Origin: an uncultured Fodinibius sp.
GTDB lineage: Bacteria > Bacteroidota > Rhodothermia > Balneolales > Balneolaceae
Assembly: GCA_913056455.1 (NCBI GenBank)
Contig: CAJXMJ010000001.1
Coordinates: forward strand, 1-64,000
Direction: 5' to 3'
Length of the DNA stretch: 64,000 bases
The notes under the pieces were generated by a model. The model saw only the letters and a program-made list of their open reading frames with translations, was not told where the DNA came from and did not search any database. This document shows positions 27,036 to 55,411 of the stretch, piece after piece. The position numbers and the translations under genes are program-made. The first letter of the stretch is position 1, and each line of letters opens with the position of its first letter.

Positions 27036-28163
27036 ATGGATTACGCAGTTTATCCTTTCAAACGAAAAAATAAGTATCGTCTCTACGTTCGGTTCGAAGA
27101 TGAAAACGGAGAGCGCAAACATCTATCCACCGGAATAACCTATCCGTTGAAGGCCTCAAAGAAAAAACGCAAGAAGGCTCAACAAGAGGCCAAGCAGAAA
27201 GCAGCTGATCTGTTGGTCGACTATTTTAAGGAGCAACGTATTTTGGAAGAGGAGGAAAGCAAAGCGATGGAGCTTTCCGATTATTTGGAAGAGTACTACT
27301 GGCCACATGTTGGGGCCACCTGTGCTGACTCCACCTTGGTTAGCTACCAGGGGGCGTTGGATCATTTCATTCGGACCATCGGAGATAAACCGATCGATGA
27401 GTACGAACGAAAAATGATCAGTAAATATAAGATTCACCGCCTGGATAAAGAGGACATCGCTAAGACGACCATCAACATTGAAATACGCTCTATCAAAGCG
27501 GCCTTTTCTTGGGCTTACAAGAATGACTTTATCCAGAATCATCCGTACAAAGGGCAAGACTTCATGTTTAAGACGAAAAGCAAGAAGCGGGAGTTCAAGC
27601 GATATGAAATAGAAAAACTCATTGAACATACCGAGGGCAAACATATAGGTCTTGTAATTAAGCTTGCTTACTTCACGGGTATGCGTATAGGGGAGATGAC
27701 CCAAATAACCTGGGACATGGTCAGTCTCAAAGAGCGGTACATTCATATCCCGGAAGAGATTACGAAAACAAATGAACGCATGATTCCCTTAGGACAAAAG
27801 GCTTACTACATTGTAAAAATGTTGGGAAATATACTGGATCGAAAAATGGAACAGGCTCCCAAAAAGTATAAAAACGTGACTCGTGAGGAATGTTATTTAC
27901 TTCAAAAGAAACGAGGGCATGGGCAGTATGCAAAGAGAAGTATCCAAGACTTATTCCGAAAAGAAATGAATGATGCCGGACTACCTAAAGAGCTTACTTT
28001 TCATTGCCTCAGACACTCGTTTGCTACGCATGTTCTTGAAAATCCGGATGCCAATTTGTTTGGTGTTAGTAAATTGTTGGGACATACCACTCCAAATGTT
28101 ACTTCCAATTTCTATGTCCACACAGATGCCCTAAACTATCGGCAGATAGCGGATATGATTTAG
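27036..28163 (+). CDS. int: Tyrosine recombinase / phage-type integrase
   Basis: This 375-residue site-specific recombinase has an N-terminal arm-binding region (YAVYPFKRKNKYRLYVRF), a SAM-like core-binding domain (about residues 80-180) and a catalytic domain with Arg in TGMRIGEM (about 217), HCLRHSFATH (about 323) and LLGHTTPNVTSNFYVHT with the nucleophile Tyr (about 359). It lies 199 bases inside attL and reads into the island, the standard layout for a tRNA-directed element. A terminator follows. It probably catalyses integration and excision at the tRNA-Leu site. Confidence 0.94.
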   Translation: MDYAVYPFKRKNKYRLYVRFEDENGERKHLSTGITYPLKASKKKRKKAQQEAKQKAADLLVDYFKEQRILEEEESKAMELSDYLEEYYWPHVGATCADSTLVSYQGALDHFIRTIGDKPIDEYERKMISKYKIHRLDKEDIAKTTINIEIRSIKAAFSWAYKNDFIQNHPYKGQDFMFKTKSKKREFKRYEIEKLIEHTEGKHIGLVIKLAYFTGMRIGEMTQITWDMVSLKERYIHIPEEITKTNERMIPLGQKAYYIVKMLGNILDRKMEQAPKKYKNVTREECYLLQKKRGHGQYAKRSIQDLFRKEMNDAGLPKELTFHCLRHSFATHVLENPDANLFGVSKLLGHTTPNVTSNFYVHTDALNYRQIADMI

Positions 28164-30068: not shown

Positions 30069-31448
30069 TTAGCTGTGCTCTTTTTGGATGTCTAATTGAT
30101 CAATTTTAGAATAAAGTAGCCTTCTATTAATACCAAGAAGTTTAGCCGCTTTGGTTTTGTTCCAATTGGTTCTATGCAGACCTTTTAAAATCAAATCCTT
30201 TTCTACAGATTTTAAAATTTGTTGCATCGGGATGTTGCCCTCTTGCTCATGGTATTCATAAACATTTGAAAAGTCTGATTTTAAAGAGATGGATAAATCT
30301 TTTTTTTCCAGCAGGTCTCCCTTCATAAGTACAGTAGCTCGCTCAATAATATTTTCAAGTTCACGAACATTTCCAGGCCAGTGGTAGGATTTTAAATATC
30401 TTATGGCTTCTTCAGAAATGACGATCTTCTTATTGGGAGAATATTTTTTCAGAAAGAATTTAACCAATGGTTCAACATCGTCTAGCCGTTCACGTAAAGG
30501 GGGGATGGCTAAATTTAAAACATTTAATCGATAATAAAGGTCTTCACGAAAATTCCCACTCTTTACTTCCTGCTTTAGATTTTTGTTGGTAGCTGCAATT
30601 ACGCGAGCATTTGTTTTAATTGTTTCTTCTCCACCAACGCGTTCAAAAGTAAAATTCTGCAGAACTCTGAGTAATTTTATCTGAGTGGCAGGAGAAAGGG
30701 CATTCACCTCATCTAAAAAGATAGTACCGCCATCTGCTAATTCAAATCTTCCCAAGCGTTTTTTTGAAGCGCCCGTAAAAGCTCCGGCCTCGTGGCCGAA
30801 AAGTTCACTTTCCAGAAGATCTCTTGGTAAGGCACCGCAGTTTACCTTTATAAAAGGGCCATTTGATCTATTAGAATGACGATAAATAGCATCTGCGATG
30901 ACTTCTTTACCCGTACCACTTTCCCCTTCTATTAAAACTGTGGTGTCTTTTGGGGCAATTTTGCCAATCATCTTCAGGATTTCTCGCATTTGTTTACTTG
31001 AACCAACAATTTGTTGTTTAATGCTAGGCCAACCAGAGTCATCTTGGTCGCCATTGAATTCCTCGACGTTATGCAATTTTCTGTGTTGGTCAACAGCTGC
31101 ATTGACTACGGAGAGGAACTCATTAATTTCAAATGGTTTCTCAAGGTAATCGAAGGCCCCTGCTTTCATTGCTTTAATGGGCTTGTCGCTGGATCCATAG
31201 GCGGTAAAAATTATTACTGGAATCTGATCAGTTTTCTTTTTGATGGTTTTTAGCGCTTGTATACCGGAAAGGCCCGGCATTTTTATATCCATCAGTATGG
31301 CTATTGGTTGGTATTCAACAGCAAGCCGAATGGCTTCCTCTCCATTTGAGGCTTGTAAAAGAGAATAGCCCTCTTCTTCCAGCAATTCGATGATATTTAG
31401 GCGCATTGAAGGCTCATCATCGGCAATTAAAATATAATTTGAATCCAT
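30069..31448 (-). CDS. Sigma-54-dependent NtrC-family response regulator
   Basis: This 459-residue enhancer-binding protein has three parts: a receiver (DDE at 10-12, phosphoacceptor D54), a AAA+ domain with Walker A GESGTGKE, the sigma-54-contacting GAFTGA loop and Walker [10 protein letters not shown], and a C-terminal Fis-type helix-turn-helix ([22 protein letters not shown]). It starts 3 bases after the kinase gene ends, so they form one operon. The two sigma-54-like promoters and the twin palindromes at 33096-33268 are its likely targets. Confidence 0.95.
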
Positions 31449-31451
31449 AAG

Positions 31452-33053
31452 TTAGTTCAGATCCTGTTTTTCAACAGGGAGTTTAATGATACATACAGTT
31501 CCAACTGATGGCTCAATAGTATCAATAATAGTGGACTGATCCCAAGTTTCTATCAAAGATTCTTTTTCGAGTGGTTTTTCGAAATGAATGGTACCATGGT
31601 GGGATTTAATTATTTCATTGCAAATTGAGAGGCCCAGTCCTGTACCGCTATTCTTAGTGGTGAAAAAAGGTTCAAATATGCGGGGCTTAATTTCTTCCGG
31701 CATTCCGGTGCCAAAATCCCTAATATAGATTTTGGTCATTCCATCCTCTTTTAGAAGCTCAGTCTTAATTGCAATCTGACAATTTTCGGGCGAGGCCTCT
31801 ATTGAATTTTTGAGTATATTTCGGATAACCTGTTCGATAGAGTCCTTGTCGGCATGAACCGGTAGTAGTTCAGAATCAAAATTGGTTTCATAAGAGATGA
31901 TATGGCTTGGGAAAGCCTCCTTAAGCAAACTCATCTGTTCGGTTAATATCTCATGGATATCAATAGGTTGTTTTTCTTTGCCAATGGGTTTAGAGAATAC
32001 CAGAAGCCTTTTGATCAGTTTTGATACACGGTCTATTTCATTGTGAATAATGTTCAGCGACTTGTTAGATATAGGAGAATTATTGTCTAGGTTAGCTTTC
32101 TTTATTTTCCTTTCGCAGATTTGAATCCGTGTTTTAATAATTGAAATTGGAGTATTAATCTCATGCGCCGTACCTGCAATCAGGTTGCCAAGTGTTGCCA
32201 TCTTTTCTTTTTGAAATAATTCTTTTTCCAATTTTTTTCTTTCAGCTTGCTCCTTTTGCCAAGAATCTGCCATATTATTTATGGCCTTGCTAATTATTCC
32301 AAGTACTCCACGGTATTCTTTTAAACGGTAGGATGAATTGTATTTCATCTTTTGTAGCCCTTCTCTCATTTCGCCCATATGTTTTTTAAGGGTCCATACG
32401 AATGCTATGGTAACGAATAACCCAAGCAGGATTCCCCCAATTGTCAGAAAGAAAGTTCCACCCTGAATATTTTGTGAAGCTGATAGTTTTCTTTCAATAT
32501 GTATGCGAGCCCATGCAGCCCCTATAAGTTTGCCATTGGCATATATTGGCTTTGTGGATAAGGGAAATATCGCTGGATCAAACTTGTGAAGCTTAGTTAG
32601 CAGAGTATCTTCCTCGATTGTTGATCGTGCCTGTCTTCTAATAATGTTATAAGATCGTGGTGGTGGCCCAAAAGCTGGCTTGGGAGGTTCAATTGTTGGA
32701 AAACTGTATCCAATAAATTCATCGAGTTCATAAAAATAAAACCCCCCTTCAAACCGGTGGAAATTACCTAAAATATTCTTTACATCAATTGAAAGTAATG
32801 AATCTGCTAATCTCTCATCATGTTTGGTAATTTTGTTTTTCCCTTCTAAATATTTTTCCCAAACCGGACCAATATGTTCATTACTAATGCTTACCAGCTT
32901 CATGACGGCAGTCTGGGTAATATTTTTATTATCCTCAATAATTTCTTTTTCAGATTTGAGTACTACCCGGTAAAGATAAAATGAGATGATTGTGACAAAT
33001 AAGACAGAAAAGGCAGCAATTATGAGGAGTTTTTGTTTGGTAAAGAATGTCAT
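31452..33053 (-). CDS. Membrane sensor histidine kinase (NtrB/AtoS type)
   Basis: This 533-residue kinase has two membrane spans (about residues 7-29 and 200-220) bracketing an extracytoplasmic sensor domain of about 170 residues, then a linker coiled coil, a HisKA domain with AGTAHEINTPISIIKTRIQI (phosphoacceptor His) and a HATPase domain with NILKNSIEA, RDFGTGMP and GTGLGLSICNEI. It is the partner of the NtrC-type regulator downstream. The sensor probably detects a substrate or product of the adjacent peptide genes; the ligand is unknown. Confidence 0.93.
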   Translation of the reverse strand: MTFFTKQKLLIIAAFSVLFVTIISFYLYRVVLKSEKEIIEDNKNITQTAVMKLVSISNEHIGPVWEKYLEGKNKITKHDERLADSLLSIDVKNILGNFHRFEGGFYFYELDEFIGYSFPTIEPPKPAFGPPPRSYNIIRRQARSTIEEDTLLTKLHKFDPAIFPLSTKPIYANGKLIGAAWARIHIERKLSASQNIQGGTFFLTIGGILLGLFVTIAFVWTLKKHMGEMREGLQKMKYNSSYRLKEYRGVLGIISKAINNMADSWQKEQAERKKLEKELFQKEKMATLGNLIAGTAHEINTPISIIKTRIQICERKIKKANLDNNSPISNKSLNIIHNEIDRVSKLIKRLLVFSKPIGKEKQPIDIHEILTEQMSLLKEAFPSHIISYETNFDSELLPVHADKDSIEQVIRNILKNSIEASPENCQIAIKTELLKEDGMTKIYIRDFGTGMPEEIKPRIFEPFFTTKNSGTGLGLSICNEIIKSHHGTIHFEKPLEKESLIETWDQSTIIDTIEPSVGTVCIIKLPVEKQDLN

Positions 33054-33095
33054 ACAGTTGGCCTAAGTCTCAATTAATACTATATATAACCTGTA

Positions 33096-33111
33096 TGCAG
33101 AAATAATGCCA
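33096..33111 (-). promoter_or_regulatory. Sigma-54 promoter facing the kinase-regulator operon
   Basis: On the minus strand the sequence reads TGGCATTATTTCTGCA, with GG and GC separated by exactly 10 bases, as in the -24/-12 sigma-54 consensus (TGGCAC-N5-TTGCA). The GC lies about 44 bases before the start codon at 33053. The -12 box differs from the consensus by C for T. Confidence 0.65.
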
Positions 33112-33163
33112 CTTGTAGAAGATTCGATCCTGACTCTGGTTAACGTATTTTTACAATTATCGC

Positions 33164-33201
33164 TGTGATGCTTCCGCACACTCCTGTGCGATAATCGCAC
33201 A
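33164..33201 (+). promoter_or_regulatory. Twin 17-bp palindromes, probable NtrC-type enhancer
   Basis: Site 2, TGTGCGATAATCGCACA (33185-33201), is a perfect palindrome with 7-bp arms. Site 1, TGTGATGCTTCCGCACA (33164-33180), has the same length and outer bases, 5 of 7 arm positions matching. Their centres are 21 bp apart, about two helical turns. Their midpoint (33182.5) is essentially midway between the GC boxes of the two sigma-54 promoters (about 33097 and 33266). Confidence 0.65.
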
Positions 33202-33252
33202 GATTATTTATCAGATATGCTTAAATGTAAGTAGGAGCGTGCTTTAGGTCTA

Positions 33253-33268
33253 TGGCATAGTTGTTGCA
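33253..33268 (+). promoter_or_regulatory. Sigma-54 promoter of susC-susD
   Basis: TGGCATAGTTGTTGCA has GG and GC 10 bases apart and TTGCA at -12, close to the sigma-54 consensus. A start of transcription is expected near 33279, giving a leader of about 140-180 bases before susC. The NtrC-type activator gene lies nearby on the other strand. Confidence 0.75.
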
Positions 33269-33455
33269 AATTTATTAGCAAATGTTAGTTGAAGCTTGGC
33301 AAGGTCATTAGCTGGCATTGCTTAAAATGCAACTAGCCCAATATATCTTCATTAGATATCGTCTAGGGCTTTTGGTCGCTAGCAAGAATTGAAGTTTTTA
33401 CGTAATTCTTCACAACTACATGAATTCAATTATTAATAAGGGAAAGGTGATGGTT

Positions 33456-36305
33456 ATGAAAAGAATGGGACAAATGATAATTCTTGGATTAGGTGTGGTA
33501 CTCTTTATGGTCGCCACCGCGCTGGGACAGGGAACTGTAAAGGGTACTGTTTCAGCAAGCGGAACAGGCGATCCAATTCCAGGAGCGAATCTACTTGTTA
33601 AAAATACCAGTATCGGTGCTTCAACAAACGCTGATGGTGAGTTTATTATTCGCGATGTTCCTCCCGGAGAACAAGTTATTGAGGCTCGTTTTATAGGTTA
33701 CAAAACGGTCCGTAAAACTGTAACAATAGTTTCCGGTGAAACAAAAAGCCTCAATTTTCAACTTTCAGAAACAGCTTTGGAGATGGATGAGGTGGTTGTG
33801 ACAGGTACCGGTGGTCAGGCTCGCCGAAAGGAGATCGGGAATAGTATTGAGCAAGTAGGTTCAGAAGAAATTGAGGCTGCATCAATATCTGATTTTGGAG
33901 ATGTAATTCAGGGACGAACTGCAGGAGCTACAATTATGGATAATTCTGGGCAGGTTGGCTCGGCAAGTACTATAAGACTTCGTGGTGGTAATTCTTTTTC
34001 TCAAGGTAACCAACCCCTCATTTATATAGATGGCGTTCGGGTCTCTAGTGGTGCTTTCCGTAGTGATCCGGAAGTAAATCAAGCTGCAGCTCCATTTGAT
34101 GATCTGAATCCTGGAGACATTGCACGGGTAGAAGTAATTAAAGGTGCTGCTGCAACGACAGTATATGGAACTGAGGCCTCTGGAGGAGTCATTCAGATTT
34201 TTACCAAACAGGGTTCTGAAGGTGAAGCTAGGTGGAACTTATCAGTTGGTCAAGGTTTTAATAATATGCCAAAACTGGGTCCCGAAAGTGATCCAACCGG
34301 TTTGGGCCTATGGGATTGTGAAGGTATTGATCCCGGGTGCCCGGATAGTGGTACATATCATAAGAATGGCCATATTCAGCGTTACAATCTATCTGTTCGT
34401 GGTGGAGGACAGGAGTTGAGCTATTTCATTTCTAGTAATATTAGTAGTGAAGACGGTGTTTTCGGACCACAAGGAAGTGATAGCTATGGTATGAGAGGAA
34501 ACTTTGGTTTCCGACCCAATAATCAACTGAATTTTAAATTCAATACTTCTTATAACTACTCTAAAACACGGTGGATTCCAGATGGAAATAATGCAGAGGG
34601 TTTTCTGCTAAATACACTTAGAGGGGATGCCGGTTACACGCCGAATAATAATAATGCCCGAACGTTTAATATGGAGTTATTCACCCGGTCTAATCACTTT
34701 ACCTCTGGTTTGACTGCCAATTGGACCCCCATGGAAAATATGTTACATAAGGTTACAATTGGAATTGATTACAGTGAACAGGATTATACAGAAGAACGAC
34801 CTTTTGGCTTTTTCTTTGAGGAAAAAGGGGATCGTGAGGCTGACTATTATAAAATGGTCAACCGTACGATAGATTATACGGGGTCTTACGATTTTGATAT
34901 AAGTGAAAAAATATCTTCAAGTAGTTCCTGGGGTGCTCAATTTTATGATGAAACAGTAATTGGATTGAATGGTTTTGGTGAAGAATTTGGAGGTCCTGGG
35001 GATAAATTAGTTGACTCAGGAGCCAGAACCGAAGCATTTGAAGATCGCCTTAGTACCGTTAGTGGTGGGTTTTTTGCCCAAGAGCGTATAGGCTATAACG
35101 ATCGCCTGTTCATTACAGGGGGATTAAGGGTGGATGGCCACAGTACTTTTGGAGATGATTTTGGTCTCGCGTTGTATCCAAAGATTTCAGGTTCCTTTGT
35201 CCCTTCAGACTATGATTTCTGGCCTGAGTTCTGGAATACTATGAAATTGCGGGCAGCCTATGGTGAGTCAGGTAGAGCACCAGATGCTTTTGCCGCAATC
35301 CGTACTTGGAGTTCTGTTTCTGGGGATGAAGGACAGCCAGCTGTTACCCCTCAGAATTTAGGTAATCCTGATTTGGGCCCCGAGCGAACAGGAGAATTTG
35401 AGGCTGGTTTTGAGAGCTCATTCATGGAAGATCGAATCTTTGCTGAATTTACCTATTATCGTCAGTTGACAAAAGATGCCCTTGTCCCTGTTCAGCCAGC
35501 CCCATCAACAGGCTTTGTCAACTCACAACTTGAAAATGTTGGAAAACTAGAAAATAAAGGTATCGAGGCTAAAGTGGACATTAATGTAATCCAAGATGGT
35601 CCCGTTCAATGGTCAGTAGGTGGTCAGTATTCCACAAATAAAAGTGAAGCTTTAGATTTAGGGGATGTAGATCGCATCTACGTAAGCTGGCGACAAGAGT
35701 TGCGCACCGGTTATTCAGTGCCAAGCTATTTTCACGAGCGCGTTACCAATCCAAATGCTGTTGGAGAAGAACCGGAGTTTGAAGATCAATATATTGGCCC
35801 CTCTTATCCGACTCACACCTATGGCATTAATACAACTATTTCTATTAAGGATCGTCTAAAAATTGATGTCTTGGGAGAAGGTCAAGGAGGTCATGTGTTA
35901 TCGTCAGGGACGGCCTACCAAAATGTTCGTAGGGGGGCTTGGCCAACGTGTACTGATATTCAATCACAAATTGACCAAGGGAACACATCTGGCCTGACAG
36001 CATATGATCTGGCACTTTGCGATCCCAATGAAACTACTTATGGAATGTGGACTCGAGCGGCGGACTTCTTTAAGATTAGATCACTTTCAGTGGCTTATAA
36101 TTTGCCTGAAAGCTGGTTGCCTGGAAATATTAGAAATGCTTCTCTCAAAGTTCAAGGAAAGAATTTGTGGACTTTTACGGATTATCCTGGTCTGGATCCC
36201 GAAGCCTTTGAGGACGGTGCTCGCGATTTCGTGGACTATCGACAGGAGTATTACAATATTCCCCCACTGAGAACCTTCATAATGAAACTTAATGTGGGAT
36301 TTTAA
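33456..36305 (+). CDS. SusC/RagA-type TonB-dependent outer-membrane transporter
   Basis: This TonB-dependent receptor of about 950 residues has a signal peptide (MKRMGQMIILGLGVV...ALGQ), a carboxypeptidase-like regulatory domain (GTVSASGTGDPIPGANLLVK), a plug domain with QGRTAGATIMDNSGQVGSA and GAAATTVYGTEASGGVIQIF, and a beta-barrel ending IMKLNVGF. I chose ATG 33456 because GGGAAAGG lies about 9 bases ahead and it begins the signal peptide cleanly; the frame is open back to ATG 33420. It pairs with SusD to import oligomers. Neighbours are peptidases, not sugar enzymes, so a peptide is the likely cargo. Confidence 0.94.
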   Translation: MKRMGQMIILGLGVVLFMVATALGQGTVKGTVSASGTGDPIPGANLLVKNTSIGASTNADGEFIIRDVPPGEQVIEARFIGYKTVRKTVTIVSGETKSLNFQLSETALEMDEVVVTGTGGQARRKEIGNSIEQVGSEEIEAASISDFGDVIQGRTAGATIMDNSGQVGSASTIRLRGGNSFSQGNQPLIYIDGVRVSSGAFRSDPEVNQAAAPFDDLNPGDIARVEVIKGAAATTVYGTEASGGVIQIFTKQGSEGEARWNLSVGQGFNNMPKLGPESDPTGLGLWDCEGIDPGCPDSGTYHKNGHIQRYNLSVRGGGQELSYFISSNISSEDGVFGPQGSDSYGMRGNFGFRPNNQLNFKFNTSYNYSKTRWIPDGNNAEGFLLNTLRGDAGYTPNNNNARTFNMELFTRSNHFTSGLTANWTPMENMLHKVTIGIDYSEQDYTEERPFGFFFEEKGDREADYYKMVNRTIDYTGSYDFDISEKISSSSSWGAQFYDETVIGLNGFGEEFGGPGDKLVDSGARTEAFEDRLSTVSGGFFAQERIGYNDRLFITGGLRVDGHSTFGDDFGLALYPKISGSFVPSDYDFWPEFWNTMKLRAAYGESGRAPDAFAAIRTWSSVSGDEGQPAVTPQNLGNPDLGPERTGEFEAGFESSFMEDRIFAEFTYYRQLTKDALVPVQPAPSTGFVNSQLENVGKLENKGIEAKVDINVIQDGPVQWSVGGQYSTNKSEALDLGDVDRIYVSWRQELRTGYSVPSYFHERVTNPNAVGEEPEFEDQYIGPSYPTHTYGINTTISIKDRLKIDVLGEGQGGHVLSSGTAYQNVRRGAWPTCTDIQSQIDQGNTSGLTAYDLALCDPNETTYGMWTRAADFFKIRSLSVAYNLPESWLPGNIRNASLKVQGKNLWTFTDYPGLDPEAFEDGARDFVDYRQEYYNIPPLRTFIMKLNVGF

Positions 36306-36357
36306 AAAGCAATTGGTTTTCAGTTTTAAAAAAATTCAAATACAAGATTTCACTGCT

Positions 36358-37653
36358 ATGAAAACATTGATCAATTTTAAAGAAACATCATACTTGAAAA
36401 CGATACTGGTCCTTTTTGTTCTGGCTGGCTTGGTATCAAGTTGTGATTTTGGGGTTACCAATCCCGGTCGCATACAGGAAGAAGATTTGAATACGGTACA
36501 GGGCATGAATGCTCTAGTAACCGGAATGTCTGCTGACTTCTCTTATGTATATGACGATCTAAGTCTCAGAGGAGCTATGTTATCAGATGAGTTGGCTGGA
36601 AGTGGAAGTTACTATTTAACTTCCACTTTGCGGCATGGAAGAGTTGATCCTGAAGATGTTGGTTTTTACTGGGAAGGAGTGCAACAAGCTCGCTTTGTTG
36701 CAGAGAATGGAATCGAGCGCATGAAAGAGGTACTCGGAGACGATTTCCAAGGGAATCCACTGACTGTTAGGGCATATCTGTTTGCAGGTTTCTCAAACAG
36801 AATTATCGCTGAAAATTATAACCGTGATGTAATAGACAAGGGATCAGCTCAGCCGGCAAGTGAAACTTTTCAGCGTGCTGTAGGTTACTTTGAAGAAGCA
36901 GTGCAACAAGCGCAAGCTGCAAATGAAAGTGATTACTTGACAGCTGCCCATGGTGGTCTTGCACAGGTTTACGTTGGCCTAGGAAACTGGTCAATGGCTC
37001 TTCAACATGCTAGCCAGGTTCCTACAGACTTTGTGCATTCAGCTGCATACTCAAACAATTCGGGTAGAGAGTCAAACGAATATAGACTTGAAACCCATGA
37101 CCGCTATGAGGCTTCTGCATTAAATACTTTGGCCGCCTCTCGAAGTCCGCAGGATCCCCGAGTACCAATTACAGACTGCTCTGCGACTCCCGAAGCTTGT
37201 AGTGATGAACTGGCAGCTGACGGTCAAACTATAATGCTTCGCCAAGAAAAGTTTCCTGAGCTTGGTTCTGATATACCAATTGTCAAGGGAACTGAGATGA
37301 GATTAATTGAGGCTGAAGCTGCACTTTTGGATGATGACTTGCAGACGGCAATGAATAAAATTAATGAAGTACGTAACCATCATGGCCTGCAAGATACTAG
37401 TGCATCTGAGATAGGAGAGCTTGGAGGTAGTGACCGTAGCGATGCTTGGGATATACTTGATCAAGAACGTTTCCTTACACTATGGCTAGAAGGGCGTCGC
37501 TTACACGATCTGCGTCGCTGGGATCATTATTTCCTGGATGGGGGTACCATTGTATACGAGGGAGTTACAAGGCGAGCTTCGTACTTCCCTATCGCTGAGA
37601 GCGAGTGTGCCGCCAATGAAAATGTAGAATGTGAAAAGCCCTACACCGATTAA
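36358..37653 (+). CDS. SusD/RagB-type outer-membrane lipoprotein
   Basis: This lipoprotein of about 431 residues has a signal ending VSSC, where Cys is lipidated, and SusD features: a TPR-rich N-terminal half and the C-terminal ERFLTLWLEGRRLHDLRRW motif. It forms the lid that captures substrates for the SusC channel. I prefer ATG 36358 because it directly starts the signal peptide; the open frame extends back to 36292, overlapping susC. No other binding protein is encoded with it, but the VPS10-like gene lies downstream. Confidence 0.9.
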   Translation: MKTLINFKETSYLKTILVLFVLAGLVSSCDFGVTNPGRIQEEDLNTVQGMNALVTGMSADFSYVYDDLSLRGAMLSDELAGSGSYYLTSTLRHGRVDPEDVGFYWEGVQQARFVAENGIERMKEVLGDDFQGNPLTVRAYLFAGFSNRIIAENYNRDVIDKGSAQPASETFQRAVGYFEEAVQQAQAANESDYLTAAHGGLAQVYVGLGNWSMALQHASQVPTDFVHSAAYSNNSGRESNEYRLETHDRYEASALNTLAASRSPQDPRVPITDCSATPEACSDELAADGQTIMLRQEKFPELGSDIPIVKGTEMRLIEAEAALLDDDLQTAMNKINEVRNHHGLQDTSASEIGELGGSDRSDAWDILDQERFLTLWLEGRRLHDLRRWDHYFLDGGTIVYEGVTRRASYFPIAESECAANENVECEKPYTD

Positions 37654-37778: not shown

Positions 37779-40700
37779 ATGATACGAGACTATAGAATTC
37801 CCTCTCCGGTAGTGCTTGTTTATAGTTGTGTAGTCACTTTCTTATTAGCACTGTTAGGAAACGCTCAAGTAGTTTTGGGCCAACAGGATAGTGCGGTCCC
37901 TGAGTTTTATCAAAACCTTGAGTTTCGGAGCATTGGTCCAGCCGTTACAGGAGGTCGAATTCATGACGTTGAAGCTTTGGATGATGATCCTTCTACTGTT
38001 TATGTAGCCACAGCATCAGGCGGTTTGTGGAAAACAGTTAATAGTGGGACTACCTGGGAGCCTATTTTTAATGATAAACCAGTCAGTACTTTTGGAGATC
38101 TGGCTATTGCTCCATCTAATACTGATATCATTTGGGCAGGGACGGGAGAACAGAATAATCGGCAAAGTACTTCCTGGGGAAATGGTATATATAGGTCTAA
38201 AGATGCGGGAAAATCCTGGACTCATCTGGGATTGGAGAAGACAAGACATATTGGAAGAGTTCAAGTACATCCAGAAGATCCTGATGTAGCATATGTGGCG
38301 GCTCTTGGTAATTTGTGGAAAGCAAGTAAAGAAAGAGGTGTTTATAAAACGGTTGATGGTGGTCAAAGCTGGGAAAAGGTCCTTTACATAGACCGTAATA
38401 CGGGTAGCGTTGATTTGGTTATGGACCCTGAAGATCCCAACACACTGTACGCCGCGACTTATCAACGAAGGCGACGTTCATGGGGTTTTAACGGAGGTGG
38501 TCCCGGAAGCGGAATATTTAAATCGACTAACGGGGGGCAGGAATGGAAAGAGCTAATGAAGGGCATTCCGACTGGAGATAAAGGCCGTATAGGCCTTTCT
38601 ATTGCTGAAACCAATTCTAATACCTTATACGCGACTATAGAGCATGCAGATTCCTCGGGGACTTATAGGACAGATAATGCCGGAAAGAGCTGGGAGCGGG
38701 TCAATAAATTAAATCCGCGCCCGATGTATTACAGTCATATTTTTGTAGATCCAACGGATCAACAAAGAGTTTATGTATTGGGAACTGAATTTTATATGAG
38801 TGAAGATGGCGGCAAGACATTCCGCCAGATGCCCACTCGTCCTACCTATGATGTCGGGGTGCATAGTGATCATCATACCCTTTGGATTAATCCGTCTAAC
38901 CCGAGTCATTTTTATTTGGCAGGCGATGCCGGCTTGCACGTAAGTAAGGATAGAGGCGAAACCTATAGGCGTATTAACAATATACCCATCGGACAGTTTT
39001 ATGCTATAGGATTGGATATGCGAGATCCCTACTACATATATGGAGGAATGCAAGATAATCATTCGTGGATGGGCCCCAATGCAAATCGACGGTGGATAGG
39101 TATTATTAATGATGATTGGTCACAGATTGGTTTTGGCGATGGTATGTATCACCGTCCTGATCCCACGAACTATCGAATTGTGTATAGTAACGAGCAGAAT
39201 GGGGGAATTACCCGTCTTGATCCCAAAACAGGTGATTTGCGAAATATACGTCCTTACCCAAAGGATGACGAAGAAGAATACCGTTTTGATTGGGTAACAC
39301 CTATTGAGCTTTCCAATCATGATCCTACTACAGTTTATTTTGGTGGGAATCATTTGTTTATCTCTCATGATCAAGGAAATTCCTGGCAGCGTACTGAAGA
39401 TTTGACTAGAGGTATCCATCGTGATTCATTGTCTTTGATGGATGTGGAGGGGACTAAAGATATGTTGTCAAAGCACGATGGAACTTCTTCATATGCTGAA
39501 ATAACAACTATTTCAGAATCACCTATAACTTCTGCAATTATTTGGATAGGGACTGACGACGGTAATATTCAAGTTTCCAGAGATGGGGGGAAGAGCTGGT
39601 CAGAAGTAGCAAAAAATATTGGAGGAGTCCGATATGGGACATATGTGAGTAGAGTTGAAGCATCTTCAAGTGATAAAGGCACAGCCTATGCCACTCTTGA
39701 TGCCCACCGTGATGGAGATTTTGCTCCTTATGTTTTTAAGACTACAAATTTTGGGAGAACCTGGAAAAAAATAACAACTGGTTTGCCTGGCGAGGGTTCT
39801 GTTAATGTAATTCGAGAGCATCCCAAAAATCCCAATTTACTCTTCCTTGGTACTGAGCATAATCTCTATGTATCTCAAAATGCAGGCAAAAAATGGAACC
39901 GGTTGGGTTCTAATTTACCCACCACGCTCTATGATGATTTGAGAATTCATCCCAGAGAAGATGATCTAGTTGTTGGGACGCATGGAAGAAGTATTTGGAT
40001 ATTAGATGATCTTACTCCGTTGATTAACTGGGAAAAACAGACTGAAAAAAAAGAGGCAAAGTTATTCCCGATAAAATCTGCCCAACTTTTACAGTACTGG
40101 AAGTCAACATCCTATCGTGGACAGGCTTCTTATTCAGGAAAAAATCCGCCCCAGGGAACTATTTTGAATTACTACTTAGGTGAAGCTACGGATTCAGTAG
40201 ATATCGAAATAAGAAACAGTTCCGGAATGTTGGTCCGTACTTTAAAGGGAGCAGGTGATGGAGGTGAGATTCACAGACTTAACTGGGATTTGCGCCACGA
40301 ACCGCCTCCTTCAAGGGAGGAGGACGAAAAGGAGGAAGGTTTGGTCAAATCCGAAATTATTTTACCTGAATTGCCGCACGAAACTAAACCAAAGGGTCCT
40401 TTTGTAGCTCCCGGTGTGTATGAGGTGAAATTACTTACAGGGGATAACGTCTCGGTGCAAACTGTTACAGTAGAAAAAGACCCCGAGCTCCCTCTTAGTG
40501 ATCAGGATTGGCACGAAAGGGAAGAATTTCTCCTGGACGTAGCCGATATGCAGGAAGAAGCTTGGCAGGCTGCCGAAAAAATTGCGGAGCTGCAACAAAG
40601 AATGCATGCTTTGCGTGATACCCTGAAAAGTCTGGATAGACTATCCAGTGAGGTATCTGAAAGAGTGGGTATCGTGGATTCCCTTGCCAATGAAATTGGC

Positions 40701-40931
40701 GCAGAATCACCCAATGATGGGTTAAGGGACGATCTGTATGACTTTGCCAGTGAATTTATCCGTGACGGTTCAGATCAGAGCTCCTTATATCCGCCCACTC
40801 AAACCCAGTGGATGAGGAAAAAAGATTTAGATCGAAGGTTAAATCAAACTCTCAGGGAAATCAAAAACGAAGTGGCCTTGGCTGAAAAAATCATAACTCA
40901 ATACAAGGAATTCTTGCCAGATGGTGAATAA
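37779..40931 (+). CDS. Secreted Asp-box (VPS10/sortilin-like) repeat protein
   Basis: This 1050-residue exoprotein has a signal peptide (hydrophobic stretch about residues 11-35, ending GQQDS) and about ten Asp-box repeats of the S/TxDxGxxW type, for example SKDAGKSW, TVDGGQSW, STNGGQEW, SRDGGKSW and TTNFGRTW. These form a sortilin/VPS10-like beta-propeller. A final helical region is rich in Glu and Leu. Proteins of this type are often called glycosyl hydrolases, but no catalytic site is evident; binding or partial hydrolysis is possible. Its end overlaps the next gene by 11 bases, indicating an operon. Confidence 0.82.
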   Translation: MIRDYRIPSPVVLVYSCVVTFLLALLGNAQVVLGQQDSAVPEFYQNLEFRSIGPAVTGGRIHDVEALDDDPSTVYVATASGGLWKTVNSGTTWEPIFNDKPVSTFGDLAIAPSNTDIIWAGTGEQNNRQSTSWGNGIYRSKDAGKSWTHLGLEKTRHIGRVQVHPEDPDVAYVAALGNLWKASKERGVYKTVDGGQSWEKVLYIDRNTGSVDLVMDPEDPNTLYAATYQRRRRSWGFNGGGPGSGIFKSTNGGQEWKELMKGIPTGDKGRIGLSIAETNSNTLYATIEHADSSGTYRTDNAGKSWERVNKLNPRPMYYSHIFVDPTDQQRVYVLGTEFYMSEDGGKTFRQMPTRPTYDVGVHSDHHTLWINPSNPSHFYLAGDAGLHVSKDRGETYRRINNIPIGQFYAIGLDMRDPYYIYGGMQDNHSWMGPNANRRWIGIINDDWSQIGFGDGMYHRPDPTNYRIVYSNEQNGGITRLDPKTGDLRNIRPYPKDDEEEYRFDWVTPIELSNHDPTTVYFGGNHLFISHDQGNSWQRTEDLTRGIHRDSLSLMDVEGTKDMLSKHDGTSSYAEITTISESPITSAIIWIGTDDGNIQVSRDGGKSWSEVAKNIGGVRYGTYVSRVEASSSDKGTAYATLDAHRDGDFAPYVFKTTNFGRTWKKITTGLPGEGSVNVIREHPKNPNLLFLGTEHNLYVSQNAGKKWNRLGSNLPTTLYDDLRIHPREDDLVVGTHGRSIWILDDLTPLINWEKQTEKKEAKLFPIKSAQLLQYWKSTSYRGQASYSGKNPPQGTILNYYLGEATDSVDIEIRNSSGMLVRTLKGAGDGGEIHRLNWDLRHEPPPSREEDEKEEGLVKSEIILPELPHETKPKGPFVAPGVYEVKLLTGDNVSVQTVTVEKDPELPLSDQDWHEREEFLLDVADMQEEAWQAAEKIAELQQRMHALRDTLKSLDRLSSEVSERVGIVDSLANEIGAESPNDGLRDDLYDFASEFIRDGSDQSSLYPPTQTQWMRKKDLDRRLNQTLREIKNEVALAEKIITQYKEFLPDGE

Positions 40932-42738
40932 TATATTATTCAACAAAAATAATACGGTGGTAAAGGGGCTGTTGATCCTGTTTTTAATTGTTGGGCTTTG
41001 TGGTTGTGGTCCTACTACCTCAACGGTGAAAAAGGCTCCCTCAAGCATAGTTAAAGTTCGGGGACAGCACCAAGTGGCTCCAGAGGTAATGGTGGCTACC
41101 TCACATCAGTTGGCGACGGATGCCGGCATTAAAATGCTTGAAAATGGCGGAAATGCAGTAGATGCCACCGTGGCTTCGGCATTTGTTCTTGGAGTGGTAG
41201 AGCCAATGATGGCGGGTATAGGTGGTGGCGGATCCATGACCGTATGGGAAAAAGCTACAGAAGAAGCAAAGCATTTTGAATTTTATGCAAGCGCAGGAGC
41301 TGATTCTGGGAAAGCCGGACCGGCAACGCCTGATTCTCTATTGACACCCGAACAAGAAGTAGCAGTGCCCGGTACGGTTGCTGGGCTTCTGACTGCACAT
41401 AAGCAATACGGTGAATTGCCACGATCCGAGGTTTTAAAACCTGCCATAGAAACTGCTAAAAATGGTTTTATTGTCCATCCACTGTTGGCTAGAACTATTT
41501 TGGAAGAAAAAGATAAGTTACATATTGATTCAGCTGCTGCTAATCTATTTTATCCGGGAGGTGAACCCCTTAGGGCCGGCGAAAAGTTAGTACAACCGGA
41601 ATTAGCATCTACGTTGGAAAAGATTGCGAATAAAGGACAAGAGGGGTTTTATCAAGGTATCATAGCGGAGCGTCTAGTTGATAGACTTGAAAAAGGAGAT
41701 AGTCCTATGACCTTGAATGATTTAAAAAGTTATAAACCCCGTACAAGAAGTCCTTTGCTGGGTGATTTTAAAGGATATACCATATTAGCGCCCCCTCCAC
41801 CCATGGCGGGAATGGAAGTGATTGAAACATTAAATTTACTGGAAAAATACGATTTGTCTTCCATGGGGCTTCCTGCAGAAAACCCTCGCGCGTTGAGTTT
41901 ACTGACTGATGCCATTCGGACTTCCCGAGCTGATCGATATAAATGGAACGGGGATCCCCGGGGTGTGGGAGTACCTGCTGCGGCTATTGCCAGTGATGAC
42001 TACGCAGAAGAAAGGCGTCGTTGGGTTGGGGGGGCAGTACCTGATTCATTACCAGCTGGTAACCCCTGGCAGATGGTTAGCTCGGGAAAACAGGTTACTA
42101 TCAATAATATTACGGGCTATCCCTTTACGTCATTCGAAGCGCCTGAAACAAATTCTGAGCAAATGGACACCAGCAGGGATGAATCATTAGATAACCAGAC
42201 CACCCATTTATCTATTGTTGATGGGGAAGGTAATGCCGTAACATTAACATTTACCATGGGCCAATATTTTGGTTCGGGAGTGTTTAGTAAAGGGACTTTT
42301 TACAATACCGCAGCCAGAAATTTTGATGATTCACCAGCAAATAAATGGGGCCCTTATCGGACACCTCGTTCTTCAACAGCGCCCACCATGGTGCTAGAAG
42401 ATTCAAGGGTTCGGCTGGTAGTCGGATCGCCGGGTTCGGGCCGAATTCCCCCAGCTATTGACCAGATGATCTTGTATACCTTGGAGTATGGCATTGATCC
42501 TCTGGAAGCTATTTACATGCCACGTATTTATCCTTTTACAAATTCCAATACGGTCAGGGTCGAAGATGGGTTTCCCACAGCTCCTTTAAAACGGTTGTCA
42601 GACAGAGGATATGAATTAGAGGTTCTAGCTCCTTATGATCTCTATTTTGGGGGAGTGCATATGGTCTATGTTACTGAAGATGGGCAGTTAATCGGGGTAG
42701 CCGATCCGCGTCGAAATGGTACTGTATCAGGATATTAG
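40921..42738 (+). CDS. Gamma-glutamyltransferase 1, lipoprotein
   Basis: This 605-residue member of the gamma-glutamyltransferase family has a lipoprotein signal (LIVGLCGC, Cys at about residue 30), the GGNAVDATVASAFVLGVVEP motif, and the autoprocessing site QTTHLSIVDGEGNAV with the nucleophile Thr after Gln. The second-subunit motif GSPGSGRIP is present. It should cleave gamma-glutamyl bonds in peptides such as glutathione, or transfer the group. It is anchored outside the cytoplasm and overlaps the upstream exoprotein gene. Confidence 0.92.
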   Translation: MVNNILFNKNNTVVKGLLILFLIVGLCGCGPTTSTVKKAPSSIVKVRGQHQVAPEVMVATSHQLATDAGIKMLENGGNAVDATVASAFVLGVVEPMMAGIGGGGSMTVWEKATEEAKHFEFYASAGADSGKAGPATPDSLLTPEQEVAVPGTVAGLLTAHKQYGELPRSEVLKPAIETAKNGFIVHPLLARTILEEKDKLHIDSAAANLFYPGGEPLRAGEKLVQPELASTLEKIANKGQEGFYQGIIAERLVDRLEKGDSPMTLNDLKSYKPRTRSPLLGDFKGYTILAPPPPMAGMEVIETLNLLEKYDLSSMGLPAENPRALSLLTDAIRTSRADRYKWNGDPRGVGVPAAAIASDDYAEERRRWVGGAVPDSLPAGNPWQMVSSGKQVTINNITGYPFTSFEAPETNSEQMDTSRDESLDNQTTHLSIVDGEGNAVTLTFTMGQYFGSGVFSKGTFYNTAARNFDDSPANKWGPYRTPRSSTAPTMVLEDSRVRLVVGSPGSGRIPPAIDQMILYTLEYGIDPLEAIYMPRIYPFTNSNTVRVEDGFPTAPLKRLSDRGYELEVLAPYDLYFGGVHMVYVTEDGQLIGVADPRRNGTVSGY

Positions 42739-48599: not shown

Positions 48600-50192
48600 A
48601 TGTCTGACAGCCTCAAAAAAATGGAAAAACGGCTTTGGCAAGCAGCCGATAACCTGCGTGCCAACTCTACGCTCAGCTCATTTGAATACTCCACGCCCGT
48701 GCTGGGACTCATCTTTCTGCGCTACGCCTGGCATCGCTTTAAGCCGCTGCACGAAAAGATGGAAAAAGAGACCAGCAGCCGAGTGACCTTCGGCCCCGAG
48801 CACTACAAGGCCGAAGGGGTGCTCTACCTGCCCGAAGAGTCGCGCTACGATTACTTGCTTACGTTGCCCGAAAGCGAAGATATCGGACAGAAAGTAAACG
48901 AGGCGATGGAAGCCATCGAACGGGAAAATCCCGAGCTGGCCGACGTGCTGCCCAAGGAGTACAAGCGATTTGACGATCCCGTGCTGAAAGACCTGCTTAA
49001 GAATTTCTCCAATGTGGGCACCGATGTGGAAGGCGACGTATTTGGACAGATTTATGAGTACTTCCTCGGGCAGTTTGCCATGAACGAGGGACAGAAGGGC
49101 GGCGAATTCTTTACACCTACCTCCATTGTAAAACTGATTGTGGAAGTATTAGAGCCCTATGGAGGCAAAATCTTAGATCCAGCCTGTGGATCAGGCGGTA
49201 TGTTTGTACAGTCAGAGAAATTTCGCCAGCGTCACCGCGATCAAGCCCAGCAGAACCTCTCCATCTACGGACAGGAGAACAAGGAAAATACTGTCCGCCT
49301 GTGTAAGATGAACTTGGCGGTACACGGACTGGAAGGCGATATTAAAGCCGGTAATACCTATTACGAGAATCTGCACGACTGCGTGGGACGCTTTGACTAC
49401 GTGATGGCCAATCCGCCCTTTAACGTGAGCGGGGTGGATAAGGATACGATCGAGGGTGACCCGCGCTACCCATTTGGCATCCCCAGCACTGATAATGCTA
49501 ACTACCTGTGGATGCAGGAATTTTACAGCGCCCTGAATGACCGTGGACGTGCCGGTTTTGTGATGGCCAACTCCGCCGCCGATGCTCGCCATAGCGAGCA
49601 GGAGGTCCGCAAGCAGATGATTGAGGAGGGCGTGGTGGATGTGATTATCTCCATCGGCTCTAACTTCTTTTATACGGTGAGCCTGCCCTGCACGCTCTGG
49701 TTCTTTGACAAGGGCAAGCAAGGCACCGACCGCGAAAACAAAGTGCTGTTTATTGACGCCCGCAACATCTACCGGCAGATCGACCGAGCCCAGCGTGACT
49801 TTACGCCTGACCAGATTGAATTTATTTCCAGTATCGTCCGCCGGTACCGCCAGGAAGAGAAAGTGCTTTTTGAGGTAGCCGCCGAGCCGGATGTGGAATA
49901 TGAGACCAACGGAAGCAGTGTGACCCAGCCGGATAATATGGATGAGCTATTCCCCAATGGAGAATACAAGGACATTCCTGGCCTTTGCAAAGTGGCTACA
50001 GTTGAAGAGATTGAAGAGCAGGGCTGGAGCCTGAATCCGGGCCGGTACGTAGGGGTGGCCGAGCGGGAAGAGGATGATGTAGATTTCCAAGTTCGACTAA
50101 ATCAATTATACGAAGAGTTGGAAATGTTGAATGCTGAGGCTTCAGATCTTGAGAATGAAATAAATAAAAATATTCAATCTATTCTTGATTAG
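48600..50192 (+). CDS. hsdM: Type I restriction-modification methyltransferase subunit HsdM
   Basis: This 530-residue N6-adenine methyltransferase has an N-terminal HsdM helical domain, the SAM-binding motif [12 protein letters not shown] (about residues 195-206) and the catalytic NPPF motif (ANPPFNVSG). It methylates the site chosen by HsdS. Its stop is immediately followed by the hsdS start. The codon choice is much richer in G and C than that of the SIR2/HerA genes downstream. Confidence 0.96.
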
Positions 50193-51404
50193 ATGTCTGA
50201 TAAAGTACTACTACAAGATATTTTGGAATTTACACGTGATGGGGAATGGGGAAAAGAAGATCCATTTGAAAATTCAAGACATACAAGAGTTATAAGGGGT
50301 ACTGATTTTGAAGATATTAGAATAGGTAAAGTAAATGAATTACCTCATAGACATGTCGCAGAACGTTTTGTTGAATACAAGGAATTAAAGCCATTTGATG
50401 TTCTCTTAGAAACTGCTGGAGGTTCAAAAAATACACCGACTGGAAGGACTCTTTTATTAAAGCCTTCCTTGTTTGAGAAAGTAGATGTTCCTATAGTCTG
50501 TGCGAGTTTTGCTCGGTTTTTAAGATTTGATGACTCCAAGGTTGAGCCAGAGTATTTATTCTGGCATTTACAGTATTTATATAGAAATGGTGTTTTAAAG
50601 CAATATCATGTCCAACATACTGGAGTTGCACGTTTTCAGTTTACTACCTTTAAAGAGAATGAATATTTAGAACTTCCAGACCGTGAAACCCAGCGGAATA
50701 TAGCTTCCACTCTCTCCTCCTTTGACGACTTGATCGAAAACAACACCCGCCGCATCGAGATCTTGGAAGAGATGGCACGGCGGATCTACCGCGAGTGGTT
50801 TGTGCACTTCCGCTATCCCGGTCACGAGGATGATGAATTGGTGGATTCGGGTACGGAGTTAGGTGAGATTCCCGAGGGGTGGGAAGTCAAGAAGTTGAAG
50901 AATTTTCTAAAGTTTAAAAATGGTAAGTCTCCAGAAACCAAAGAAGGTGTAGAGTATCCTGTTTATGGTTCCAATGGTATTATTGGAAAATGCAATGAGC
51001 CAGGTTGGGAGGATGGTATCATTATAGGTAGAGTTGGTGCTTATTGTGGTTCGGTTGAATATTGTGAAGGTAAATTCTGGGGTTCTGATAATACTATAGT
51101 AGCTACAACAAGAGAAGAGTATGATTTTTCTCTTTTTGCCTACTATAAACTTGAAGATTTGAATTTAAGAAGATATGCAGGTGGCTCAGCTCAACCGTTG
51201 ATGACCCAAACAGTTATAAAAGATATTAAAATAGCTATTCCCCATAGTGATTTACTTGAGCAATTTAGTGAACAGGCTCGGGAGCTATGGAAGTTTAAGC
51301 GGAATCTTGAAAAGAAGAATAAGAAATTAAAAGGAACAAGAGATTTACTATTGCCGAAGCTTATTTCGGGGAAGATTGATGTGGAAGAATTAAATATAAA
51401 TTAA
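50193..51404 (+). CDS. hsdS: Type I restriction specificity subunit HsdS
   Basis: This 403-residue subunit has two target-recognition domains (about residues 1-165 and 230-370) joined by a central helical repeat (NTRRIEILEEMARRIYREWF) and a C-terminal helix (NKKLKGTRDLLLPKLISGKI). It gives the two half-sites of the methylation target. The two recognition domains are AT-rich while the central section (about 50690-50885) is GC-rich, like hsdM, with sharp edges. This suggests domain swapping. A degraded copy of its tail lies at 51823-51903. Confidence 0.93.
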   Translation: MSDKVLLQDILEFTRDGEWGKEDPFENSRHTRVIRGTDFEDIRIGKVNELPHRHVAERFVEYKELKPFDVLLETAGGSKNTPTGRTLLLKPSLFEKVDVPIVCASFARFLRFDDSKVEPEYLFWHLQYLYRNGVLKQYHVQHTGVARFQFTTFKENEYLELPDRETQRNIASTLSSFDDLIENNTRRIEILEEMARRIYREWFVHFRYPGHEDDELVDSGTELGEIPEGWEVKKLKNFLKFKNGKSPETKEGVEYPVYGSNGIIGKCNEPGWEDGIIIGRVGAYCGSVEYCEGKFWGSDNTIVATTREEYDFSLFAYYKLEDLNLRRYAGGSAQPLMTQTVIKDIKIAIPHSDLLEQFSEQARELWKFKRNLEKKNKKLKGTRDLLLPKLISGKIDVEELNIN

Positions 51405-51502
51405 AGGAAAATTCCTGAATTCTTTTAATAAATATATTATTGGTTCAAACAGAATCACAATTAACGTGACCTCACTAAAAAACAAATAAATAACACATAA
51501 CT

Positions 51503-51694
51503 ATGGATGAAAGCACAGTTAGTCTCTTTAATCAAATGAAAGAAGAGTGGGAAAAGTTAGAAGAAAATCACGCAGACTTCGATCAAAAGGATAATAAAGC
51601 GGCCGGTCGCCGAGCCAGGAAAGCTGCAAATAACTTGAAAAAGTTGTTGACGCCCTACAAGAAAGCTTCTGTAGACGAAGCCAAAGAAATGTAG
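51503..51694 (+). CDS. Histone H1-like (Hc1-type) small basic protein
   Basis: This 63-residue protein has the Hc1-like pattern DNKAAGRRARKAANNLKKLL flanked by Glu-rich and Lys-rich helices, found in small nucleoid proteins of Bacteroidota and relatives. It probably binds DNA. It lies in the hsdS-hsdR interval; whether it belongs to the defence system or is a passenger is unknown. A terminator-like hairpin follows directly. Confidence 0.65.
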   Translation: MDESTVSLFNQMKEEWEKLEENHADFDQKDNKAAGRRARKAANNLKKLLTPYKKASVDEAKEM

Positions 51695-51717
51695 GGATAA
51701 GATCGACAAAGAGTTTG

Positions 51718-51749
51718 AAAAGGGATGCGGATTAATCCGTATCCCCTTT
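51718..51749 (+). terminator. Terminator after the Hc1-like gene
   Basis: AAAGGGATGCGGA pairs with TCCGTATCCCCTTT apart from one G-U pair and a bulge, around a TTAA loop. A modest pyrimidine tract (CTCGTTACTTTT) follows. Confidence 0.6.
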
Positions 51750-51759
51750 CTCGTTACTT

Positions 51760-51903
51760 TTAAAAGTATGGTTGGAGCTTCGGGAAGACGATAGGTACGG
51801 CGAAGAATTTGCTCCAGTAAGCCAGCAAAATAAGAAGTTGAAAGCGACAAGAGATTTGCTATTAGCGAAGTTTATTTCGGGAAAGATTGAAGTCAATCAA
51901 TAA
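51760..51903 (+). pseudogene. Remnant of a second hsdS (3' end)
   Basis: In one frame, ending at TAA 51903, the last 26 residues read QQNKKLKATRDLLLAKFISG followed by KIEVNQ. This is nearly the same as the end of the intact HsdS (NKKLKGTRDLLLPKLISG...). There is no start codon or recognition domain. It lies directly before the SIR2 gene, so an earlier second hsdS or a recombination event is likely. Confidence 0.8.
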
Positions 51904-51915
51904 TGGAGAGTTATT

Positions 51916-55393: not shown

Positions 55394-55411
55394 TAATTGA
55401 ATCATTGATAC

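Follow-up and report, generated by a model that had tools for sequence, protein, structure and literature searches.

Klebsiella nifH-nifJ provides a precedent for the shared layout considered here. The dctBD genes, which lie divergent from dctA, are not known to depend on sigma-54 and are read from an ordinary housekeeping promoter; the DctA carrier sits in the inner membrane, and the sensor domain of DctB is double. ZraR, of an NtrC-type two-component system in Salmonella and Escherichia coli, is reported to drive the divergent sigma-54 promoters of zraSR and zraP (PMC4987338). For Rhizobium, the DctD site is given as TGTGCGgaaatCCGCACA, and two enhancer sites are described before dctA (PMC11077940). 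In Desulfovibrio vulgaris, two divergent sigma-54 operons for type III secretion, one of which holds the DVUA0100 activator gene, have a DVUA0100 motif predicted in their common upstream region (PMC4641369), and the divergent sigma-54 operons orp1 and orp2 are placed under DVU2106, with binding sites and promoters tested (PMC3897727).

We compared these systems with a kinase-regulator operon and a divergent operon for an outer-membrane SusC-SusD transporter in the window, the whole 64,000-nucleotide stretch of DNA that was analysed. As described for zraP/zraSR, a two-component system would control its own operon and a neighbouring target by divergent sigma-54 promoters, and both promoters face away from an activator region that adjoins the activator operon, which is the anatomy of an autoregulated divergent pair of that kind. 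The target in the zraP account is a periplasmic zinc-dependent chaperone, whereas here it is a SusC-SusD operon, and the kinase and regulator score below the ZraS (149.5 vs. 479 bits) and ZraR (372.3 vs. 760 bits) cut-offs, the regulator also falling below the NCBIfam cut-offs for NtrC (TIGR01818, 438.5 vs. 558.6 bits) and AtoC (454.6 vs. 714 bits). The dctA/dctBD system shares with the window a kinase-regulator pair for a transporter gene, and TGTGCGgaaatCCGCACA has the same half sites as the right dyad; the site as quoted there is 18 bp, whereas the right dyad is 17 bp with a spacer one base shorter, and neither window dyad has the published 18-bp DctD form as quoted, TGTGCGgnnntCCGCACA. The D. 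vulgaris systems likewise join two divergent sigma-54 operons to one enhancer-binding protein, but the cited passages describe neither DVUA0100 nor DVU2106 as part of a kinase-regulator pair, and for orp they give a separate activator site per promoter, a need for IHF and an activator gene under sigma-70. The proposed control logic equals that of zraP/zraSR; what is new here is its service to SusC-SusD. The layout is well conserved and lends itself to tests, and the system is not of a novel kind.

Table 1. Features of the divergent control region and flanking genes in the window.
Feature	Position	Strand	Remarks
Sigma-54 promoter box TGGCATTATTTCTGCA	33096..33111	minus	GG-N10-GC; faces kinase-regulator operon; predicted start ~33085
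Sigma-54 promoter box TGGCATAGTTGTTGCA	33253..33268	plus	GG-N10-GC; faces susC; predicted start ~33279
Left enhancer dyad TGTGATGCTTCCGCACA	33164..33180	none	17 bp, imperfect, 5/8 pairs
Right enhancer dyad TGTGCGATAATCGCACA	33185..33201	none	17 bp, perfect palindrome, 8/8 pairs
NtrC-type response regulator	30069..31448	minus	Pfam Response_reg, Sigma54_activat, HTH_8; GAFTGA in alignment
Sensor histidine kinase	31452..33053	minus	Pfam HisKA, HATPase_c; extracytoplasmic PAS-like sensor domain (from model)
SusC-type TonB-dependent receptor	33420..36305	plus	TIGR04056 449 bits vs. cut-off 368.25; predicted target gene
SusD-type lipoprotein	36292..37653	plus	Pfam SusD_RagB 45.9 bits vs. cut-off 23.1; overlaps susC
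Sortilin/BNR-repeat protein and gamma-glutamyltransferase	37779..42738	plus	Pfam

Direct reading of the sequence bore out the two outward GG-N10-GC boxes of the preliminary description at the positions in Table 1, and the predicted starts lie 12 bases beyond the GC of each box. That description had also placed two 17-bp palindromes 21 bp apart between the boxes; size and spacing (21 bp from start to start) held, but only the right dyad, which extends to CTGTGCGATAATCGCACAG, is a palindrome, the left one being imperfect. The joint centre of the dyads (33182.5) and the point midway between the two GC dinucleotides (33182) differ by 0.5 bp, within the single base that had been claimed, and the enhancer centre is ~70 bp from each of the two promoters. 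The assignment of the regulator to the NtrC type also stood: it is a response regulator with a receiver domain, an AAA+ domain with an intact GAFTGA and a Fis-type HTH, as in NtrC-type (group I) enhancer-binding proteins, and the genome encodes RpoN (a 511-codon open frame gives its single match to PF04552, the sigma-54 DNA-binding domain, at 2.2e-58). Translation of susC may begin instead at an in-frame ATG at 33456. The predicted susC leader (33279-33440) is long and has several possible hairpins; its folding was not clearly better than that of shuffles (z −1.57, equalled by 13 of 200), and it was set aside as a riboregulator candidate.

We assessed how often such elements arise by chance. 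Box matches with at most one mismatch numbered 33 in the window against 25.8 ± 5.3 expected (8 of 100 shuffles had as many), and exact matches numbered two against 0.87 expected (22 of 100 shuffles), one of them within the kinase gene, so that the boxes by themselves are near chance in the window. The dyad pattern TGTGC-N7-GCACA, taken twice at the window spacing with up to three mismatches, had one occurrence in the 3.28-Mb assembly (95.9% complete), and its reversed-pattern control had none; the strict form of the pair was found in one of the 124 genomes of the order, the window's own, the dyads of relatives departing from it in letters or, in L039, in spacing. The combination of boxes and dyad pair is far beyond chance. 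We found no IHF consensus in the gap and no Rfam element up to E 1 in 32900-33600. The right dyad also matches a terminator-like pattern on the plus strand, which we take as a by-product of its palindrome. TAnnTTTG is a Bacteroidota-type promoter motif; its one match in the gap (minus strand, 33267-33274) lies ~210 bases before the kinase gene, and a promoter reading of it was set aside because the window count (57 vs. 53) is that of chance.

A family search with the regulator gave matches in all 92 genomes at E 1e-60, mostly paralogues of ~40% identity, and close relatives were few: at E 1e-125 the 244 genomes of the class yielded 6, counting that of the window, and a further close relative (G074, 77% over 212 residues) is cut by a contig end. 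The system is patchy, because only 2 of the 12 genomes of the genus carry it. A phage-integrase-family gene at 27036-28163, upstream of an amidohydrolase and the regulator cluster, may bear on this distribution. The divergent susC-susD genes and the following gamma-glutamyltransferase gene are kept in three related loci, each of which carries two labels in our searches: L045 (L038; Fodinibius (Aliifodinibius) salipaludis, Balneolota), L046 (L040) and L047 (L041).

When the gap sequences of the window, L045 and L046 were aligned, the kinase-side box matched that of the window at 16/16 and 15/16 positions and the susC-side box at 16/16 and 14/16, while identity over the remaining gap was 94/300 and 114/300 (31–38%). 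The dyads were less conserved per base (12 and 12 of 17 positions; 8 and 11 of 17), and a second dyad at 21 bp was also present in L046 and L047. Counterparts of the kinase-side box occur in L047 and L048 and of the susC-side box in L047, L048 and L049. Both boxes are conserved in relatives though the surrounding gap DNA has diverged. Comparing the F. salipaludis locus with the window, the kinase is 66%, the regulator 78% and the gamma-glutamyltransferase and M14 genes 87–88% identical. The stretch corresponding to window positions 33420-37653 (L038 10360-14524) encodes a SusC 43% and a SusD 38% identical to those of the window. By this comparison the susC-susD pair may have been exchanged beneath unchanged promoter boxes.

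The distribution of the layout in the wider kinase family was assessed with a sensor-motif scan of one genome per species, in which 95 pattern matches gave 36 loci labelled Balneolota, Bacteroidota, Ignavibacteriota, Calditrichota, Zixibacteria or Neomarinimicrobiota, or unassigned. From the gene maps, 18 of these were judged divergent, with the gene upstream of the kinase pointing the other way, and 18 non-divergent, the latter including L071 and L074, in which the upstream DNA is too short to tell. With the window included, 13 of 19 divergent loci had two outward boxes, 168–217 bp end to end, with a dyad pair between them: the window and L045-L048 (Balneolota), L052, L053, L062 and L080 (Ignavibacteriota), L054 (Zixibacteria), L057 (Calditrichota), L059 (unassigned) and L051 (labelled Bacteroidales), that is, four phyla plus one Bacteroidota record. 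The L051 kinase groups with the L049 kinase inside the Balneolota branch (100/99), so L051 may have been transferred or mislabelled. In each of the 13 loci none of 200 dinucleotide shuffles scored as well, and 0 to 8 of 200 showed any layout of this kind. Scoring used sigma-54 weights and, for dyads of distant loci, a looser form (TGnGC-N7-GCnCA) that was chosen after the first results and applied equally to shuffles and controls. The layout appeared in 2 of 229 control upstream regions (the other upstream regions of at least 300 bases in the 36 loci, with the kinase gap of the 18 divergent loci excluded) and in 14 of 1,863 control windows, and the best control score (39.5) was below that of the lowest kinase locus (43.8). 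The recurrence of divergent promoters and a central dyad pair with this kinase-regulator family extends to several phyla.

Six divergent loci had no full layout at the threshold. Two of them (L056, L058) have a weak divergent-side box and a well-placed dyad pair, three (L049, L050, L066) have the divergent-side box and dyads without a kinase-side box, and in L063 the boxes are far apart and the dyad pair is unsupported. A one-sided scan for a box with an upstream dyad pair, covering these six and the 18 non-divergent loci (308,092 bases), returned five places, all between the kinase and the divergent gene in five of the six; it found no box with upstream dyads in the 18 non-divergent loci. In a kinase tree of 35 rows, with labels assigned after the scans, a 100/99 branch separated 18 co-directional rows from 16 divergent rows with box and dyads. 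Bacteroidota members (L060-L079, other than L062, L063 and L066) showed co-directional clusters where these were visible, several with SusC-like genes.

We also assessed the geometry of the control region across loci. With the boxes fixed in 15 loci, the distance of the best dyad pair from the box midpoint had a median of 5 bp and averaged 6.0 bp; among 20,000 shuffle sets none had a mean as small and one had a median as small. The dyad pairs of L045 (17 of 300 shuffles as good) and L080 (130 of 300) were indistinct from shuffles and that of L057 was modest (3 of 300), while the other 12 loci had no shuffle as good. Offsets exceeded 10 bp in L047 (16), L059 (21.5) and L080 (11), and equality to the single base was seen in the window and L046 and nearly so in L058 and L053. 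Because the offsets are small yet varied, near-symmetry is a real tendency and single-base equality is not general, so that the symmetry of the preliminary description holds for the window but exact equality of distances is no rule among its relatives. Distances from the enhancer centre to the boxes clustered near 70 and 80 bp, and when phase was tested across 13 loci, R was 0.51 for 10.5 bp, a value reached by 16 of 20,000 jittered sets (66 when L046 was dropped). For 10 bp the corresponding count was 181, and R peaked near 11.5 bp. The sign of helical phasing is suggestive only: the test was chosen after the fact, and its loci are related and contribute two values each.

Since the same layout is kept in several phyla, the transporter and its regulator are probably turned on together by a single switch, and we consider it quite probable that the regulator activates its own operon and the SusC-SusD transporter from one shared enhancer. 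From the observed elements, their conservation, the rpoN gene and the domains of the regulator, we infer a sequence of steps in which the kinase would sense a periplasmic ligand and phosphorylate the NtrC-type regulator. Regulator dimers would then occupy both dyads in the gap and come together as an AAA+ oligomer, and that one oligomer could loop the DNA and open sigma-54 polymerase at both promoters. One promoter would switch on susC-susD and probably also the genes after them, the sortilin/BNR and gamma-glutamyltransferase genes being perhaps co-transcribed with susC-susD; the other would switch on the kinase-regulator operon and so give positive feedback. Counting against this reading are the larger offsets of L047, L059 and L080, the weak dyad pair of L045, which is the closest named relative, and the unsupported pairs of L080 and L063. 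To these are added the missing kinase-side box of L049, L050 and L066, the negative scan of the 18 non-divergent loci, the lack of an IHF consensus in the gap and the near-chance frequency of the boxes by themselves.

The alternative that fares best is that only the susC side is driven by sigma-54 and the enhancer, the kinase operon being read, like dctBD beside dctA, from an ordinary housekeeping promoter with its GG-N10-GC box unused. The three loci that lack a kinase-side box while keeping the dyads and the divergent-side box are consistent with this, as is the kinase-side box scoring below the other box in the window, L045, L047, L048, L054, L057 and L059. The order of scores is reversed, however, in L056, L058, L062, L063 and L080, the kinase-side box is nearly invariant in a gap that has otherwise diverged, and sigma-70-like hits in and around the gap, two against a shuffle mean of 2.4, are at shuffle level, so that housekeeping promoters were rejected as candidates there and we regard this alternative as unlikely.

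Two sigma-54 promoters could also be served by dyads that bind another enhancer-binding protein or a CRP/FNR-type protein. Counting the regulator's own gene, the genome has at least eight places that match it at E 1e-60 or better, with 18 of 48 candidates scored, and the TGTG...CACA half sites of the dyads resemble those of CRP sites. The spacing in CRP sites is 8 bases, against a gap of 9 bases between TGTG and CACA here, and a CRP-type reading of the dyads was rejected. Similar dyad pairs adjoin the kinase-regulator family in several phyla, and the pair is unique in the genome at up to three mismatches, both of which argue for the cognate regulator and make a foreign one very unlikely. Chance resemblance in AT-rich intergenic DNA, for which the near-chance frequency of the box pattern alone would speak, has next to no probability given the conservation, the shuffle and control scans and the fact that the genome has the dyad pair only once.

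Beyond activation of both operons from one enhancer, we tentatively propose, as a possibility that we rate below even, that several FCB phyla share a kinase-regulator family whose strongly conserved sensor is uncharacterised and which brings with it a sigma-54 enhancer of its own, near-symmetric and bidirectional. One activator oligomer, at similar and perhaps helically phased distances, might loop either way and so set the ratio of transporter to regulator, with a target that could be swapped (SusC-SusD, a TRAP-type transporter or secreted proteins).

The sensor domain carries an almost invariant stretch, GPPPRSYNII...FDPA.FPL. Pfam gave no match at E 0.001 over the sensor part of the kinase (window 32430-32957), and a sensor profile found none up to E 0.1 among the sequences of solved structures. 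The sensor model (mean pLDDT 88.4) resembles extracytoplasmic sensor domains; Foldseek ranked the amino-acid chemoreceptors Mlp24 and PctC highest, with low TM-scores near 0.4, while a second structure aligner ranked CitA (Z 12.9), WalK (12.7) and DcuS (12.2) highest and aligned the DctB chain over 140/253 residues (Z 10.7). CitA binds citrate and the sensor fold is widespread; the likeness of the modelled fold identifies no ligand.

In the window, the genes near the kinase encode SusC-SusD, the sortilin/BNR protein, two gamma-glutamyltransferases, an M14 carboxypeptidase and a relative of diaminopentanoate dehydrogenase that scores below the NCBIfam cut-off. The genes divergent from the kinase elsewhere include two kinds that pass the Pfam cut-off, for a DctM-type TRAP component (L054, L056, L063) and for an AstE/AspA-type enzyme (L054, L056). 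There are also gamma-glutamyltransferase relatives (L054, L056, L057, L063 by similarity) and, below the cut-off, Asp/Glu racemase-like genes (L058, L062) and an FGase-like gene (L080); other divergent genes encode proteins with secretion sorting tails. The co-directional locus L060 has racemase-like and FGase-like genes, both over the cut-off. The ligand is perhaps an acidic amino acid, a gamma-glutamyl compound or another carboxylate, and we hold acidic amino acids or gamma-glutamyl compounds as the signal to be a reasonable guess and no more.

The control of SusC-SusD pairs is generally ascribed to ECF sigma/anti-sigma pairs, hybrid two-component systems or SusR-type regulators, and a conserved sigma-54 switch over SusC-SusD would give a large bacterial group a further means of control. 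Among the papers listed by our literature searches, none was seen to report sigma-54 control of SusC-SusD or this sensor-kinase family, which is weak evidence of absence, and a term search of the main text of a 2025 survey of sigma-54 regulons gave no match to 'SusC' or 'Balneol' (PMC12316311). The near-symmetric layout would be a natural test object for one looping activator shared between two promoters, and the conserved sensor domain would offer a handle for identifying the nutrient signal. Elsewhere in the window, positions 48600-58606 hold the type I restriction genes HsdM, HsdS and HsdR. Between HsdS and HsdR lie genes for a SIR2-like protein and a HerA-type helicase, an arrangement that resembles a defence insertion.
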